Made by a program: the position numbers and the translations under genes. Positions 1 through 16,257 of a stretch of 64,000 nt of DNA are shown here, one piece after another. Each line of letters opens with the position of its first letter. Positions within the stretch are counted from its first letter, which is position 1. This DNA comes from an uncultured Verrucomicrobiales bacterium (lineage in GTDB: Bacteria; Verrucomicrobiota; Verrucomicrobiia; Verrucomicrobiales; Akkermansiaceae): assembly GCA_949373085.1 (NCBI GenBank), contig CASICJ010000002.1, positions 62,001-126,000 on the forward strand, given 5' to 3'. The notes under the pieces are model-generated. The model had not been told where the DNA came from and made no database searches. It saw only the letters and a program-made list of their open reading frames with translations.

Positions 1-498
1 ACGACCGGACCGCGGCGAAAGCCGAGCATTCATCAAACCAATCGGAATTCCTAGGCGGTGAGTTTCATAGATGAGATTCGGCCAAATCTCTGACTCCACC
101 ATCACAACTACACGAGGCTCTAATCGCTTCATAACACGGCGGATCAAGAAGCCCAAGTCAAGCGGCGCATAAATCACCCGCACATCTTCAGGTGCCTTAT
201 CCCGAGCCACCGCCATTCCGGTCGCTGTGGTTGGGACTAGCACAAAATGATCGTCCGTTTCTTTCTGCCATTTCGCAATCACCTTTAGCGCGAGTAGCAC
301 CTCTCCAACGCTCACCGCGTGAATATAAACTGCCCCAGTGCGTTCAAACTCCACTTCCCTCCGGTAGGTTCCTATTCGCTCAAGCAACCCACTCCCCCAA
401 CCATCACGACGCAACATCTTCAACATCCAAAAAGGCGCAACAAAGATCGCTACCAGCGGATAGAAAATTCTCCAAATGAATATTACCAAAGTCCTCAT
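1..498 (-). CDS. waaA: 3-deoxy-D-manno-octulosonic acid (Kdo) transferase, N-terminal part (3' end outside window)
   Basis: Transfers Kdo from CMP-Kdo to lipid IVA at the inner membrane, the first step of LPS core assembly. Read on the minus strand from the ATG at 498, the frame stays open for 166 codons to the window edge. A membrane anchor (about residues 4-25) is followed by HAVSVGEV, whose Glu (about residue 66) is the catalytic base position of the family. Then come the PTTATG loop, ESEIWPN (about residue 135) and NARLS. All are hallmarks of the WaaA/KdtA GT-B N-terminal domain. The start lies one base downstream of the rsmD stop, so the two are cotranscribed. The CMP-Kdo-binding C-terminal domain is not in the window. 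Confidence 0.93.
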   Translation of the reverse strand, partial: MRTLVIFIWRIFYPLVAIFVAPFWMLKMLRRDGWGSGLLERIGTYRREVEFERTGAVYIHAVSVGEVLLALKVIAKWQKETDDHFVLVPTTATGMAVARDKAPEDVRVIYAPLDLGFLIRRVMKRLEPRVVVMVESEIWPNLIYETHRLGIPIGLMNARLSPRSGR

Positions 499-9118: not shown

Positions 9119-10309
9119 ATGAGTTGTTCTACCCCACCCACCTTCAATCATCGGCTCGAGTATTGTGCCTATCGCATCTTCGAGTGGATGCTCAAGATGA
9201 TGTCTTTGGAGACCGTTTTTAAACTTGGTGAATTCACAGGACGAATTGTTCATCGCTACAACTCAACTCGAAGGTATCAAGTCACCCGCAATCTTCGGCT
9301 CGCATTCGGTGACGAAAAATCGCGACACGAAATCTCACAGCTTACTGCAGAAGTTTTCGAACGCACCGGAGCTAACTTTTTAACTTCGCTCAAAATCCCT
9401 TTTTTAAGTGACGCCAAAATCCTAGCTAGACTGCACTTTGAAGGGCTCGACGATTTCTTCGCTACGACGCGCGAGGGTGGCATTGTCATGGTCTCTCCAC
9501 ATATGGGAAACTGGGAACTCCTTGCCCAAGCCATCTTCCTAGTCGATGGGGATTTTAGAGTCGGAACACACTATCGACCCCTTAATAATTCTCTAATTAA
9601 TGCCGTCGTCGAACGACGTAGAAAACGACGGGGACTGAAACTTTTCGCAAAACGTTCCTCGACCCATCGCCTCTCGAGCTTTGTAAGAGATGGTGGAGCT
9701 ATGGGTATCCTGGCGGACCAACGGGTTGGCGACCGCGGAGCCGCCTGTCTGTTTTTTGGTCGCCCCACTACCTGTTCACCACTCCCCCATCTAATCGCCA
9801 AACGAGGGAAAGTTCTCCTGACGAGTCTCTCATGCGAGACAGTCGGAATCGCGCGTTGGAAAATCTCCTTCCGGCATATCCCAATACTATCCGCTCAAGC
9901 ATGCGCAGATAGTATCGAAGAGGACTGGCGACGATCACCTGTTGATGTCTTTTGGTTCGAAGACCGCTGGCGCCTCCAGGGAAACGATCCAATTTCCTTC
10001 CTCAATAAGTATAAAGACGATCTCGAAATACCCCGTCCACTTCGAGCAGTGAACCTCGCTAAGGAAGAAAAAAAACTTCCCTATCCAGACCGCTTGATCA
10101 CCCAAGAACATTACGAGATCGACTTCAATCAGAGCGACCAATCCCTTCGCGAAATACTCAACGAAATCTCAAATCGTGGAGCGAATCCAGTGGATATCTT
10201 CCTAGCTCCGCATTCTCAATTGGGTCGCGTCAAAAAACTCTCCGGAAAAACAACCACCCTAGCCGCCGAAAAGAATTACCTTCCAGAGACCACCCCTACT
10301 GAAAAATAG
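9119..10309 (+). CDS. Lipid A biosynthesis acyltransferase (LpxL/HtrB-like) with C-terminal extension
   Basis: Late acyltransferase adding a secondary acyl chain to Kdo-lipid A at the inner membrane. The core spans about residues 20-305. It carries the catalytic HX4E motif in SPHMGNWE (about residue 127), then GILADQRVG and the RCVFFG-like ACLFFGRPTT region. The DVFWFEDRW segment is the usual late motif. About 85 residues follow that I cannot assign to the family (ITQEHYEIDFNQSDQ...), so the 396-aa length exceeds the usual roughly 300. It is divergent from the sulfatase across a 94-bp gap. Confidence 0.88.
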   Translation: MSCSTPPTFNHRLEYCAYRIFEWMLKMMSLETVFKLGEFTGRIVHRYNSTRRYQVTRNLRLAFGDEKSRHEISQLTAEVFERTGANFLTSLKIPFLSDAKILARLHFEGLDDFFATTREGGIVMVSPHMGNWELLAQAIFLVDGDFRVGTHYRPLNNSLINAVVERRRKRRGLKLFAKRSSTHRLSSFVRDGGAMGILADQRVGDRGAACLFFGRPTTCSPLPHLIAKRGKVLLTSLSCETVGIARWKISFRHIPILSAQACADSIEEDWRRSPVDVFWFEDRWRLQGNDPISFLNKYKDDLEIPRPLRAVNLAKEEKKLPYPDRLITQEHYEIDFNQSDQSLREILNEISNRGANPVDIFLAPHSQLGRVKKLSGKTTTLAAEKNYLPETTPTEK

Positions 10310-10478: not shown

Positions 10479-12629
10479 CTACGCAAAGAAATAAACCGGA
10501 GAATCTCCGACTTCCTTGATCTCAATTGATTCACCAGAGGCATTCAAAGCATACTTAAAATCGACTGGCCATGGTCCGGAGTAACTTCTCCCATTGCACC
10601 ACATCATAAGGATTTTCTCATCGTCCCGCTCAAAGCACAGCGCGTAAACGTCGTCTACCATTTCCAATTTCTCCACAAAGATTGCCGAGCCTAACTGCTC
10701 CAGAAAGACACGAAGCATATTATAAGCAATTCGTTTACGCCATCCGCCTTCGGCTCGCTCATCCACTAATCCGAATCCGTGAGCCACCAAACGCCACCAG
10801 TAAACTCTGTCTACAAAACCTGAACACACCGAGATTACCAGATATCTCAGCATGTAGACCCCATAGTCGAATTCACTCACACTAAGGGGATGCTCCGGCG
10901 CACCAGCATCCACATGGGTTGCTGTTACTGGGGACCAAATACCCGCTCCTTCGAGGGGCCAATTCACCTCCGAGATGATCACTTGGTCATCACAAGCAGG
11001 AACTACCTTCGCAATCGCTCGCAGTAATCCGCATTTCTCAAGAGTACTAAATTTTCCCTGAAAATTCTCCGGTGCTCCCCGCCGATCCACATAGAGATGA
11101 TGAGATAAGGCCCCATACCTCAGCCCATCCGGGGCACTTTCCAAAGCTGAAAGGACATAATGATACTCGAAATCAATACAAGCGGGGCCCGTGAAAGTGA
11201 TTTCAGGGAACTTCTCCTGCAACTGCACAACTGGCGACAACAAAGCAGCCTGGTCACCTGGTCCATGGACACCCCACTTCATACGGTTTACCGCATGACA
11301 AATTTCAACAGCCGTCACAACCTCACCAACTTCCTCTAGTACAAAACTTAAAAACTTAGCCCACGAATCTGGCTCGTTGACCGCCCCACGGTCCTGAACC
11401 ATTGCTATCATCACCTGGTGTCCAGAAGCAGCCAGGCTCTTCACCTGAGCCACCCCCTCCTTCCAATGTGACATCCCTTCGTGGTGACAAAAGCGCAAGA
11501 GAACCGACACCCCTTCCAACTCCTTCAATAAATCCACCTGGGAATTAAAATCCAGATCCTTCGATTCGAGCGCCACTCCAAATCGCCCCTTTAAATTGAT
11601 CCGGTTCTGGTAGGCCAATGGAAGTTGCCTGCGGTATTCACGCCAGACTTTCCCCGCAAATTTCAAAACTGACCACGCAACCTTATAATGTCTCGCTAGA
11701 GAATAATATCGCTTCCTCTCATATCTTTCCATCGTGATCGATGCCTGCGCCGATTCACGGTCCCAAATCCAAATATCCTGCACCTCGGGATAACTCCCAA
11801 CAGCCCCCCGAGACCGTTTGCGAAATGGATGCCGCCACTTACGGCTTCGCTCCCACCACTCAAAACCCCTCCGGCGAAAAATCATCTCTTTTGTAAATTC
11901 CCTGGGTAGATTCCCTCCCCAATAAATCCTCGCCAACACATTAAGGAACGCTGAAGGCAGCCGTATCCTCGAAAAATCCTGTGCTCGCTCTTTTAAGCTC
12001 AAATCCTCCCTGATCCGTCCCCGATTTAGGTCAATAAACTGAACCTCTCCCCACTCCCCGTCGGAGGACACCTGAAATTCCATGTTTTGATTGCCAAGGT
12101 CCCGATGCCAAAATCCCAAATCATGCATTCGTCGAATCGCGGAAGCGATATGACCTAGTCTTTCTACCAAAAATCGACAATCCGCCCTTTCTTGGTAGGC
12201 CTGGATCAGCGAATCCTTAAAACTGACTAAGGATTCAACGTAATCCGAAAGATAAAAACTCTCCACCAAACGCGAACCTTCCCAACAATCGAAATAGGCA
12301 ATAGGTTGAGGCGTTCCAACCCCACGACTTTTTAAAAAAGTGGCAGCCTTAAACGAACGCTCAGCCTTACTTCCCTTCCTGAAGTCATAACGATCTTTCA
12401 AAAAACCTTGCCTACCAAAGGCCTTCACAGCCACCTTTAAACGCTTCCCATCCTTTTCCAAATCAAGCACTACCACCCGGTGTCTCCCATCGGATAAAAC
12501 CCCATTCTTGGCAAGTCTGGCTCGCTCCCCAAATCCCCCCAGAGACTCTTCGTCAAAGAATGATTTAAAATCAGAGAACACCTGTCCTTGGAGCTTCCCC
12601 ACTGAAAGTTTCTCCACGCCTCGGTTCAT
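10479..12629 (-). CDS. WaaP/InaA-type lipopolysaccharide kinase fused to a glycosidase-like TIM-barrel domain
   Basis: An unusual two-domain protein. The N-terminal half is a eukaryotic-like kinase fold of the Kdo/LPS core kinase group: VAVKAF supplies the ATP-binding Lys, HRDLGNQN is the catalytic loop and FIDLNRGR takes the place of the DFG segment. The C-terminal half (from about residue 345 in this numbering) resembles clan GH-A glycosidases. EICHAVNR has an acid/base-like Glu before Asn, and ISEVNWPL near residue 552 holds a nucleophile-like Glu at a strand end. I used ATG 12629; a GTG at 12746 would add 39 residues and leave 17 bp to the divergent kinase gene. It presumably phosphorylates a core heptose or Kdo, and the glycosidase-like half may be non-catalytic. 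Confidence 0.78.
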   Translation of the reverse strand: MNRGVEKLSVGKLQGQVFSDFKSFFDEESLGGFGERARLAKNGVLSDGRHRVVVLDLEKDGKRLKVAVKAFGRQGFLKDRYDFRKGSKAERSFKAATFLKSRGVGTPQPIAYFDCWEGSRLVESFYLSDYVESLVSFKDSLIQAYQERADCRFLVERLGHIASAIRRMHDLGFWHRDLGNQNMEFQVSSDGEWGEVQFIDLNRGRIREDLSLKERAQDFSRIRLPSAFLNVLARIYWGGNLPREFTKEMIFRRRGFEWWERSRKWRHPFRKRSRGAVGSYPEVQDIWIWDRESAQASITMERYERKRYYSLARHYKVAWSVLKFAGKVWREYRRQLPLAYQNRINLKGRFGVALESKDLDFNSQVDLLKELEGVSVLLRFCHHEGMSHWKEGVAQVKSLAASGHQVMIAMVQDRGAVNEPDSWAKFLSFVLEEVGEVVTAVEICHAVNRMKWGVHGPGDQAALLSPVVQLQEKFPEITFTGPACIDFEYHYVLSALESAPDGLRYGALSHHLYVDRRGAPENFQGKFSTLEKCGLLRAIAKVVPACDDQVIISEVNWPLEGAGIWSPVTATHVDAGAPEHPLSVSEFDYGVYMLRYLVISVCSGFVDRVYWWRLVAHGFGLVDERAEGGWRKRIAYNMLRVFLEQLGSAIFVEKLEMVDDVYALCFERDDEKILMMWCNGRSYSGPWPVDFKYALNASGESIEIKEVGDSPVYFFA

Positions 12630-12763
12630 CCTGCCGCAAAGTTTACAAAGCAGTCGAAAAAAAACAATCCGGTTTCTTCCATTCCACTTTCCACTCGACC
12701 CCAAAGGATCCGAACGATAAATTTTAACCCTGAGATTTTCTCCCACCAGAGTTAATTACAATA

Positions 12764-13420
12764 GTGAACCAGAACCTTATCAACCTATCCTCTGACTCCC
12801 AAATTATTGGCGAGGGATTCTTCTGCACTTGCTACCTCCACCCAGAAGACAACTCTATCTGCATCAAACTTCCGACCACTCATAAAAAGGCACGAAAACG
12901 TCAAAAGGCAGACGAAGCCTACTATCGAAAGCTTCATAAAACCAAAGCGGATTTAACTTATATTAGTGATTATCTGGGCTCCTGCCAAACCAGCCTCGGC
13001 CCCGGCCATCTCTACCAATATATCAAAGATAAAAATGGCAAGACTTCAAAAACTCTGAATCACTATATCGCAAACTATCCCCAAAAAACGGAGGAGCTTT
13101 GCAGCCATCTTGCCAAGCTGGGCCACTACCTCCTAGAAAACTATATTCTTGTTAGTGACCTCCACGGCAACAACATCGTTTTCCAGCATCTCAGCGAAAA
13201 CTCAAAAAAACTCATGATCGTAGACGGAATTGGCGATCGCGTTATTTTCACCGCCCCTAACTTTTTCAACTCGATTAAATCAGATAAAATCATTCGCCGG
13301 TGGAATAAATTTATCAGGCGAATCCAAACTGATCATCCATCTGCTTCTCTGCCAAAAGAAAAACTTTATTTGGGGAATAAAGCCCTTACGGACCCAAAAA
13401 CTGTCAATCGAGCTTACTAA
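12764..13420 (+). CDS. YrbL-like kinase-fold protein
   Basis: A 218-aa protein resembling the YrbL family (PhoP-regulated protein in enterobacteria), a divergent member of the protein-kinase-like fold. It has a Gly-rich start (IIGEGFFCTCYLHPEDNSIC), an ICIKLP strand with the ATP-site Lys, a catalytic-loop-like VSDLHGNNIVF and a metal-loop-like MIVDGIGD. It begins at GTG 12764, divergent from the LPS-kinase fusion. YrbL proteins are known but their substrate is not. Placement among LPS kinase, exporter and kdsD genes suggests an envelope role. Confidence 0.75.
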   Translation: MNQNLINLSSDSQIIGEGFFCTCYLHPEDNSICIKLPTTHKKARKRQKADEAYYRKLHKTKADLTYISDYLGSCQTSLGPGHLYQYIKDKNGKTSKTLNHYIANYPQKTEELCSHLAKLGHYLLENYILVSDLHGNNIVFQHLSENSKKLMIVDGIGDRVIFTAPNFFNSIKSDKIIRRWNKFIRRIQTDHPSASLPKEKLYLGNKALTDPKTVNRAY

Positions 13421-13452: not shown

Positions 13453-15198
13453 CTAAGCCTCCGCCCGCTCCGAAATAATTTCCCCTTGATCAAGCTCGAT
13501 CACACGGCTTGCAATTTTGGTAGTAGAAAGGCGATGAGCGATTAACAAGGTCGTGCGACCCTTCACCAAGTCAGCTAGAGCCGACTGAATAATTGCTTCA
13601 CTTTCATTATCAAGCGCACTAGTCGCTTCATCCAAAAGGAGAATTGGCGCATCCTTTAGAAATGCTCTCGCAATAGCAATCCGTTGTCGTTGTCCCCCGG
13701 AGAGACTTCTTCCCATTTCAGAAACCGGCGTATCGTAACCTTGCTCCTGTTTGAGAATGAACTCATGCGCATTTGCTTTTTTAGCAGCACTTATCACTTC
13801 TTCTTCACTAGCATCGAGACGACCAAGAAGAATATTTTCCTGAATCGTCCCTTTAAATAACACAGCAGTTTGGGAAACCACCGCAACCCGGTCACGAAGC
13901 TCACTCTTGGACCATTTTCTCACATCCAGACCACTCACCGAAACACTTCCCGACTTCACGTCGTAAAAACGCGGAATCAAATTGAAGAGACTTGATTTCC
14001 CCCCTCCACTCGGACCAATCAAAGCCACGCATTGGCCGGGCTCAATCGTAAGATTAATTCCACGTAGAATGAGCTCATCACCATAACCAAAGGACACATC
14101 CTTGAAAACAACACGACTTTCAAAACTCTCTGGGGTCTCAGGACACTCAGGATCATCCAGATGATCAACAGCCAAGGAAATCTCCTCTAATCGATCAAGA
14201 GAAGCATCAGCTTGGCGCAAGTTAGCCTGAATCGCGCCCAACTTTTTCACAGGCTCATAGCACAGATATAACGCCATCGCGATAGCCATAAAACTGGAAA
14301 GCCTCATCCCTTGTTGCGCTCCCAGATAGATCGCTACCGTCAAGCCAAGCACCGATACAAATTCCACCGACGGTGAAATTAGCTGCTTGTATTTCACAAC
14401 CTTCATCGAATAACGGAGCACCCCCTGAATTCGATTACGAAATTTTTGCACGACCGATCCCTGCAGATTATAGGCCCGAATCTCAAGTGGCGCCTGAATC
14501 GACTCAGAAATCTGCCCACTTAAATCGCCAGCATTAGCCTGTAATTTGCGGGCTTTTCCACCCAAACGTTTCGCAATTGCGCGCAGTGGGAGAATACACA
14601 AAGGAATCGAGAAAATCGAAAAGAGAACCAGAGAAGCGCCTTGGTTAGAAGCCGCTTCTGAGATCAAAAACACCAGCGCAGCGATTAGGACCGCGGGCTG
14701 CTTAATAATATCAACTGCCACTTTACCCACCGTCGAACGTACGACTTCAGCATCTCCCACAAGCCGCGCAAGTAAATCCCCCGCCTGTCGCTTCTGAAAA
14801 AACGCGATAGGCAAGGTTTGTAGCCTAGTGAAAACCTCGTCGCGGATCTGCTCCAAAAAACGATACCCACAATAACTCATCAGATAGGTATTTAGAAACC
14901 CACCAATCGCACGAAAGAAAAACATTAATGGAAGCCACGCACAGGCAACAGGAAGCAACCACTCACCCGGCAACTGATCGAACCAACCCATCAACCCTTC
15001 CACAAAGAAGCTGTTTTCCAGCTCTCCTTCCCCAAGATCAACCTGGTCGTCTTTAAAAATTAGAGGGAAGACCACCTTCGCTGCAAGCGGCAGCCCTGCT
15101 CCAGTCGCCAAAGCGTAGACCAGCCCGGACAAAACGCTTCCAAGAAGCTGCCATTTGACCGGTTTAAAGTATTTGAAATAAGGCAGAAAGCGCTTCAT
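13453..15198 (-). CDS. msbA: ABC exporter, MsbA-like lipid A flippase candidate
   Basis: A 581-aa half-transporter with a fused six-helix type-1 exporter domain (about residues 15-335) and nucleotide-binding domain (about 360-581). It shows Walker A GPSGGGKSS (about 395), Q-loop VSQT (about 441), signature SLSGGQRQR (about 498), Walker B ILLLDEATSALD (about 519) and H-loop IAHRLST. These mark an active ATPase. The assignment to MsbA, which flips lipid A-core across the inner membrane, rests on length, architecture and the neighbouring LPS genes (acyltransferase, LPS kinase, kdsD). A drug or peptide exporter of the same family cannot be excluded. Confidence 0.85.
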   Translation of the reverse strand: MKRFLPYFKYFKPVKWQLLGSVLSGLVYALATGAGLPLAAKVVFPLIFKDDQVDLGEGELENSFFVEGLMGWFDQLPGEWLLPVACAWLPLMFFFRAIGGFLNTYLMSYCGYRFLEQIRDEVFTRLQTLPIAFFQKRQAGDLLARLVGDAEVVRSTVGKVAVDIIKQPAVLIAALVFLISEAASNQGASLVLFSIFSIPLCILPLRAIAKRLGGKARKLQANAGDLSGQISESIQAPLEIRAYNLQGSVVQKFRNRIQGVLRYSMKVVKYKQLISPSVEFVSVLGLTVAIYLGAQQGMRLSSFMAIAMALYLCYEPVKKLGAIQANLRQADASLDRLEEISLAVDHLDDPECPETPESFESRVVFKDVSFGYGDELILRGINLTIEPGQCVALIGPSGGGKSSLFNLIPRFYDVKSGSVSVSGLDVRKWSKSELRDRVAVVSQTAVLFKGTIQENILLGRLDASEEEVISAAKKANAHEFILKQEQGYDTPVSEMGRSLSGGQRQRIAIARAFLKDAPILLLDEATSALDNESEAIIQSALADLVKGRTTLLIAHRLSTTKIASRVIELDQGEIISERAEA

Positions 15199-15285: not shown

Positions 15286-16257
15286 GTGGATTTGATCGAA
15301 AAAGCCCGGACGGTCGTAGGAATTGAGACCTCACAGCTCAACCGGCTGGCTGAAAGACTCGATGAAAGCTTTAGTAAAGCTGTTGGTTCACTGGAGGAAA
15401 CCCTCAAGGCAGGGCATAAAATCGTCGTCATCGGAGTCGGTAAATCCGAGCACATTGGAAACAAGTTTGTCGCCACCTTAAATAGCACTGGCGCTACGAC
15501 CGTAAGCCTCAATTGTCAAAATGCTCTGCACGGCGATCTTGGTATGCTTTCGGTTGGAGATCTTGTCATCGGCCTCAGTCATTCTGGAGAAACCTCAGAA
15601 ATGATTAGTTTGCTCCCTCACGTCAAAAAACGAGCGTCACAAATTATTACTATTACCGGAGATCCAAAATCCACTTTGGCCAAACACAGTGACGTCGTCC
15701 TTGATACCCATGTCGAGCAAGAGGCCTGCCCTCTCCAGCTCGCACCCACTTCAAGTTCGACCAACATGCTCGTTCTTTGCGACGCACTCGCCATGGTTCT
15801 CCTTGAAAAACGGGGCTTCCACTCCAAGGATTTTGCCGAACTACATCCTGGTGGCAGCCTAGGAAAGTACCTTCTAAGTCGGGTCTCCGACATCATGCGT
15901 AGCGGTTCAACTTTCGCGAAAGTCCACACCACTTCTCTCGTCCAAGAAAGCGTTCTCGCGATGCTAGAATGCCGGGCTGGAGCCGCTGTCATTATTGACT
16001 CTAACGGTAAACTAGCCGGCATTTTCACCCACGGAGACTTTGTTCGAGGCTATCAAACGAACCGGGAGATCGGAGATACTCCTGTCTCTGATCATATGAC
16101 CACTGACCCAATTACCGTTCACGAAAACGACCTCGCAGCGGAAGTTGTTCGCATCCTTCGTGAACATCGCATTGATGATCTCGTCGTTATCAATAATGCC
16201 GGTGAAGGAATCGGCCTAGTTGACGCTCAAGATTTATCCCGCCATGGACTGAGCTAA
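15286..16257 (+). CDS. kdsD: Arabinose-5-phosphate isomerase KdsD/KpsF
   Basis: Converts ribulose-5-phosphate to arabinose-5-phosphate, the first committed step to Kdo. The 323-aa protein has an N-terminal SIS domain with GVGKSEHIGNK (about residue 47), HGDLGMLS, SHSGETSE, and the AELHPGGSLGK motif (about 180). A CBS-domain pair (about 205-323) contains VSDIMRSGS and VSDHMTTDP. The start is GTG 15286, in frame with the family start. Together with waaA at the left edge it supplies both ends of Kdo use. Confidence 0.94.
   Translation: MDLIEKARTVVGIETSQLNRLAERLDESFSKAVGSLEETLKAGHKIVVIGVGKSEHIGNKFVATLNSTGATTVSLNCQNALHGDLGMLSVGDLVIGLSHSGETSEMISLLPHVKKRASQIITITGDPKSTLAKHSDVVLDTHVEQEACPLQLAPTSSSTNMLVLCDALAMVLLEKRGFHSKDFAELHPGGSLGKYLLSRVSDIMRSGSTFAKVHTTSLVQESVLAMLECRAGAAVIIDSNGKLAGIFTHGDFVRGYQTNREIGDTPVSDHMTTDPITVHENDLAAEVVRILREHRIDDLVVINNAGEGIGLVDAQDLSRHGLS

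Follow-up and report, generated by a model that had tools for sequence, protein, structure and literature searches.

A WaaP/Kdo-type kinase fused to a GH39-like barrel with a seemingly lost acid/base residue in Verrucomicrobiota, a candidate lipopolysaccharide core kinase

Lipopolysaccharide (LPS)-core kinases are important for outer-membrane stability, and to our knowledge those characterized so far are small and have no second domain of a catalytic type. One of them, WaaP, is a soluble cytoplasmic kinase, and mutants in its residues K51, D163, H168, D188, and R191 do not support growth (PMC6147952). The GH39 protein PslG works inside the cell in polysaccharide (exopolysaccharide) synthesis, with E165 and E276 as catalytic residues (PMC9075953). 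Here, we describe a protein that combines a kinase of the WaaP type with a GH39-like barrel, encoded in a stretch of 64,000 nucleotides from an uncultured Verrucomicrobiales bacterium, which was analyzed as a whole and is referred to as the window. A literature search of open-licence PMC papers did not return a published description of this fusion.

As listed in Table 1, the fusion gene lies on the minus strand, and its 716 codons (plus stop) specify a WaaP/Kdo-kinase domain, a linker, a GH39-like barrel, and a C-terminal β domain. The frame runs from an ATG at 12629, which is common to close relatives and is the likely start judged from the sequence, to a stop at 10479, and an in-frame GTG at 12746 keeps it open upstream as a longer alternative. 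Inspection of the protein by eye revealed neither a signal peptide nor a membrane segment. AlphaFold modelled the whole protein with a pLDDT of 88.5 and a pTM of 0.84. The open reading frame, its coordinates, and the two motifs quoted in the original prediction, EICHAVNR and ISEVNWPL, are all present in the sequence, and the predicted kinase-barrel fusion proved to be real, as the two-domain protein recurs across Verrucomicrobiota, far beyond chance. A chimeric assembly was considered as well and ruled out, since the same fusion is found in many independent assemblies, one of them single-contig (G409), and in both domain orders.

Table 1. Position of the fusion gene, its predicted parts, and the neighboring genes in the window
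Feature	Position	Strand	Basis or remark
WaaA (Kdo transferase), cut by the window edge	1..387	-	PF04413, E 1.1e-47 at G000:C2:61854-62387
Lipid A acyltransferase (LpxL family)	9119..10309	+	PF03279, E 5e-35
Whole fusion gene	10479..12629	-	
C-terminal β domain, residues 650-716	10482..10682	-	Predicted model
GH39-like (β/α)8 barrel, residues 344-646	10692..11600	-	Predicted model, fold comparison
Glu554, end of strand 7 (SEVNWP), on GH39 nucleophile	10968..10970	-	Model, register test
Strand 4 and loop EICHAVNRMKWG, residues 442-453, Ala446 at the GH39 acid/base place	11271..11306	-	Alignment, register test
Linker motif W287-x-W289-D290-xx-S293-x-Q295	11745..11771	-	Row conservation
Kinase domain, residues ~44-266	11832..12500	-	PF06293 match at residues 76-222; WaaP best solved relative
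Mg-binding motif DLNR with Asp200 and Arg203 (equivalents of WaaP D188 and R191)	12021..12032	-	Profile alignment
Catalytic loop HRDLGNQN, residues 175-182, with Asp177 and Asn182	12084..12107	-	Kinase alignment
Lys69, β3 ATP-binding Lys (equivalent of WaaP K51)	12423..12425	-	Kinase alignment
YrbL-family gene (PF10707), divergent from the fusion gene	12764-13420	+	
MsbA-like ABC exporter	13453..15198	-	
SIS-CBS sugar-phosphate isomerase, KdsD type, Kdo pathway	15286..16257	+	SIS and CBS domains

The kinase motifs of the WaaP group that had been predicted for the N-terminal half were confirmed by a Pfam match to PF06293 (Kdo/WaaP; E 3.2e-11, 43.5 bits versus a cut-off of 21.3) and by the family profile, for which Pseudomonas WaaP (6dfl) scores best among solved structures (E 3.4e-10), with all protein kinases ranking behind it. 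The Kdo kinase KdkA model of NCBIfam (NF002475), which spans 241 kinase positions without a barrel, scores highest among the named kinase models (37 bits, E 1.6e-9), but this score is far under its equivalog cut-off of 142 bits, and the model for the heptose I kinase WaaP/RfaP scores 31 bits versus a cut-off of 170. The kinase is placed in the Kdo/WaaP superfamily, under neither of these two named kinases. Lys69, Asp177, Asn182, Asp200, and Arg203 align with K51, D163, H168, D188, and R191 of WaaP, so that the Lys, the HRD Asp, the Mg-binding Asp, and the DLxR arginine are shared between the two proteins. Conservation was counted in 52 kinase-barrel and 9 barrel-kinase rows; Lys69, Asp177, and Asn182 are kept in 49/52, 50/52, and 51/52 of the former and in 9/9 of the latter, Asp200 lies in the same range as Lys69 and Asp177 (49-51/52 and 9/9), and Arg203 is, like these four, conserved in nearly all relatives. 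The WaaP substrate residues Y165, H168, and R191 (PMC6147952) correspond to Gly179, Asn182, and Arg203, so the Arg alone is retained. Also, the αC Glu of WaaP is absent, position 92 being Ser or Ala, and unlike WaaP the protein carries a barrel. Because the motif residues are conserved, whereas Y165 and H168 are replaced and the αC Glu is gone, the kinase half, as a member of this superfamily, is probably active but differs in its substrate pocket.

The barrel half was searched against Pfam, NCBIfam, PHROGs, and PDB sequences without finding a family; there is no convincing Pfam family in any member, PF01229 (Glyco_hydro_39) matches 0/68 barrel members, and the family assignment came from fold comparison only. 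AlphaFold modelling of the barrel alone with 68 relatives (pLDDT 94.2, pTM 0.93) predicts eight alternating strands and helices followed by a β domain. Strand 4 of the model holds Glu442 and strand 7 holds Glu554, so that the TIM barrel and the two strand positions expected for the C-terminal half are both there. A (β/α)8 barrel with an accessory β domain is also the fold of GH39, and the closest structural matches of the predicted model are BcGH39 (5jvk; Z 33.4, 2.9 Å over 339 residues) and PslG (Z 32.7), followed by heparanase/glucuronidase, GH51, and GH30 enzymes (Z about 24-27). Thus, the whole domain resembles GH39 (PDB 4zn2, 9g17, and 5jvk) with Z about 33, but with only 16-17% sequence identity. 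A profile of GH39 enzymes from Verrucomicrobiota aligned to the barrel with a profile-profile E of 6e-7 and a probability of 92%; for the barrel-kinase subfamily the hhalign probability to GH39 was <1%, which is not significant by sequence. Since fold and sequence comparisons agree, GH39 is the nearest kin of the barrel.

In GH39 enzymes strand 4 reads (F)EVWNEPN, and the acid/base is the Glu of NEP. The stretch aligned to it reads VEICHAVN in the fusion family, and in the profile alignment Glu442 falls on the first GH39 Glu, four residues before the acid/base, His445 on the Asn, Ala446 on the acid/base itself, and Asn448 on the second Asn. The local posterior in strand 4 was low (0.13-0.24), and therefore a gapless register test was run directly. 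With Ala446 on the acid/base, residues 438-466 ranked 3 of 427 placements, and with Glu442 on the acid/base they ranked 157, while for strand 7 the placement of Glu554 on the GH39 nucleophile was the best of 434. Residues were then counted in 68 barrels, comprising kinase-barrel, split-gene, and barrel-kinase rows. At position 446 the residues found are Ala, Val, Thr, Cys, and Gly, with Glu in 0/68 barrels; as far as sequences can tell, the acid/base seems lost, with Ala446 in its place. Position 442 is Glu or Gln throughout, with Gln in five kinase-barrel and two split-gene rows. A GH39 sequence (L149) also has Gln at the equivalent position with NEP intact, indicating that the Glu found there is not catalytic. 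Position 554 is Glu in 57/57 kinase-barrel and split-gene rows and His, Asn, or Tyr (mostly His) in 11/11 barrel-kinase rows, thus Glu in 0/11. The original prediction of a clan GH-A catalytic pair therefore holds for the nucleophile in ISEVNWPL, since Glu554 is invariant in kinase-barrel proteins, but not for EICHAVNR as acid/base signature. Because the acid/base Glu is missing, the barrel, although GH39-like in its predicted fold, is not filed under GH39. An active retaining glycosidase was rejected as the main reading, as the acid/base position is never Glu.

The strand-to-helix loops, which form the former active-site face, have a mean majority fraction of 0.72 in the kinase-barrel rows, with 39 positions conserved to ≥90%, compared to 0.49 and 9 positions for the barrel helices and 0.29 for the C-terminal β domain, and the conservation level of the loops was reached by 0/10,000 random draws of positions. 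Conserved pocket residues are Gln412, Arg414, Asn448, Arg449, Lys451, Trp452, Asp486, Glu488, Asp515, Arg516, Arg517, Glu521, Trp557, and Trp612, and Asp486, Glu488, Glu521, Asn448, Arg449, Arg516, and Lys532 are kept by almost every row in either domain order. Such residues suit an anionic sugar ligand, and the pocket is under selection, which sets it apart from a decaying enzyme and makes binding the simplest reading. In the linker, W287, W289, D290, and Q295 are found in 52/52 and S293 in 51/52 kinase-barrel rows; this motif is gapped in 8/9 barrel-kinase rows and specific to kinase-barrel proteins.

Strong barrel matches were found in about 62 of 387 Verrucomicrobiota genomes (88 with weak matches), and the barrel is almost always tied to a kinase, either as kinase-barrel, the commonest arrangement, as barrel-kinase, or in adjacent genes. 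The barrel-kinase proteins form a deep sister clade (G101, G259, G333, G397, G498, and others), and the deepest split of the barrel tree matches domain order. In G208 and G261, kinase and barrel are separate, overlapping genes. The only barrels above 150 bits without a kinase are in L123, a 600-aa open reading frame with no kinase hit, and in L124, where the barrel is truncated at the contig end. The occurrence of two domain orders plus an adjacent-gene form makes a working partnership of kinase and barrel very likely, as judged from gene organization. Phyla beyond Verrucomicrobiota were covered by a contig pattern scan with close-relative reach only, which returned 14 Verrucomicrobiota loci, and a plasmid search gave one weak match, to the kinase only. 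In one kinase-barrel protein (L110:7434-10100 (+), G551), an N-terminal TsaE domain (PF02367) is encoded by the same frame. Frames of 1,020-1,360 aa that reach far upstream of the kinase (L077:9302-13390 (-), L088:7515-10577 (+), and L112:2094-5228 (-)) are either spurious or encode an extra N-terminal part.

Fusions of the same kinase family to other domains were found in this phylum. G516 (L124:4331-7426 (-)) encodes a GH2 of the β-galactosidase type fused to a C-terminal PF06293 kinase (P0002), with no evident signal peptide. Like our protein, it joins a TIM-barrel glycosidase to a PF06293 kinase, but the barrel is GH2 instead of GH39-like, its catalytic Glu pair is intact, and the order is barrel-kinase. 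Close GH2 homologues neighbor kinases in G498 and G423, and in G484 one immediately follows the kinase-barrel gene; both GH2 catalytic Glu are kept in 12/12. The barrel-kinase protein is present in 15/17 genomes bearing this GH2 subfamily versus 62/387 overall (hypergeometric 3e-11, uncorrected for kinship). In addition, a WaaP-family kinase fused to GT4 is located beside a kinase gene and a GH2 gene in G423 (L176:6227-8167 (+)). From these GH2 and GT4 fusions it follows that WaaP-family kinases in these bacteria repeatedly join sugar-handling domains. Tandem double WaaP-like kinases of about 510-530 aa were also observed (L032:5375-6934 (-), L129:9032-10612 (-), and L130:5608-7140 (-)); one in G259 has the barrel-kinase gene and a GT4 gene close by.

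The neighbors of the fusion gene in the window are listed in Table 1. We take the isomerase to be KdsD from its SIS and CBS domain pair, and further to its right lies a GT9 heptosyltransferase-like gene. The YrbL neighbor is present in seven Akkermansiaceae-type loci. Across 75 loci, the recurrent neighbors are GT4, LpxL, MsbA-like, KdsD, GT2, GT9, and LpxK, and G484 has a compact cluster of kinase-barrel, GH2, GT4, GT4, LpxL, and GT9. At least one recognized lipid A/core or glycosyltransferase gene lies within 4 kb in 15/15 Akkermansiaceae-type loci and in 27/60 of the others, a raw count without a background rate. Since lipid A/core genes adjoin the fusion in separate families, the gene neighborhood supports the LPS core as its setting. 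In the source genome, which is 81% complete, the fusion protein is the sole PF06293 protein found, and WaaA is present as well, which fits this setting.

Our main reading, to which we assign a probability of roughly 0.6, is that the fusion protein is a cytoplasmic kinase for a sugar of the LPS inner core, and that its GH39-like barrel is disarmed and serves to grip the core oligosaccharide. The kinase, with Lys69, Asp177, Asn182, and Asp200, would transfer phosphate from ATP to Kdo or an early sugar of the core while the lipid A-core still lies on the cytoplasmic side of the inner membrane, prior to its flipping by MsbA. The barrel and β domain, with a charged, aromatic, and highly conserved pocket at the former active-site face and without the acid/base Glu, would present the core oligosaccharide to the kinase as a substrate-gripping module and not act as an ordinary glycosidase. 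The analysis shows directly the kinase family with its motifs, the predicted fold of the barrel, the conserved residues, the linkage of the two domains, and the genes around the fusion, while we infer that the LPS core is the substrate, that the barrel binds and does not catalyze, and which sugar receives the phosphate. The barrel probably holds a sugar chain without cutting it, because the pair of domains is conserved in both orders and half of the cutting machinery is seemingly lost. The likely LPS-core role suggested originally is supported by the kinase family and the lipid A/core neighbors, and so is the alternative of a binding scaffold, by the missing acid/base and the conserved pocket; with regard to recognition or trimming of the core sugar, recognition is more likely, while trimming by the ordinary retaining mechanism is unlikely as none of the 68 barrels has Glu at 446. 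Counting against the main reading are the low posterior of the strand-4 register, the non-significant sequence link of the barrel-kinase subfamily to GH39, the limited share of loci outside the Akkermansiaceae type with such neighbors (27/60), and the absent αC Glu. A chemical role is also hinted at by Glu554, which does not vary in the 57 barrels of the kinase-barrel and split-gene groups.

One rival, in line with the original prediction, is a bifunctional enzyme whose barrel works as a retaining glycosidase (acid/base Glu442, nucleophile Glu554) and trims the core phosphorylated by the kinase. The two Glu belong to strands 4 and 7 of the GH39-like barrel and occur together in 50/55 kinase-barrel rows, and some relatives have a cytoplasmic GH2 with intact Glu pair that is joined to a WaaP-like kinase or encoded next to one, indicating that kinase-glycosidase pairs exist in the phylum. 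However, the strand-4 register, the Gln substitutions at 442, and the replacement of Glu554 in every barrel-kinase row argue against this, and we consider it quite improbable. Non-classical catalysis, in which either Glu554 attacks a donor whose leaving group is good, as in myrosinase, or another conserved carboxylate (Asp486, Glu488, Asp515, or Glu521) does the chemistry, would account for the invariant Glu554 of the kinase-barrel clade and for the residues kept in both orders, but the loss of Glu554 throughout the barrel-kinase subfamily and a conserved pocket that is equally compatible with binding make it unlikely. An equally low likelihood is given to another substrate than the LPS core, i.e., phosphorylation of a capsule/exopolysaccharide intermediate or a protein. 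This would fit with the role in exopolysaccharide synthesis of PslG, a top structural match (PMC9075953), and with the GT4, GT2, and O-antigen ligase genes near some copies, but LpxL, LpxK, MsbA-like, KdsD, and GT9 recur as neighbors in distinct families, and the kinase family is Kdo/WaaP.

A more speculative idea, which we regard as doubtful, is that the barrel does more than grip passively and is a new sugar-handling active site. Lacking an acid/base, it would rely on Glu554 to transfer or release sugars from donors with a good leaving group, e.g., a glycosyl phosphate, thereby coupling LPS-core phosphorylation to glycosyl transfer within one cytoplasmic protein; in that case, the fusions of the kinase to GH2 and to GT4 would represent parallel solutions. 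The barrel marks a sequence family without a Pfam model. A phylum-wide combination of a kinase and a degenerate glycosidase barrel would clearly exemplify the reuse of a glycoside hydrolase fold inside a biosynthetic kinase. It singles out core assembly as unusual in Verrucomicrobiota, the phylum to which the family of Akkermansia belongs, and the fusion would offer a handle on how LPS-core kinases recognize the core oligosaccharide.
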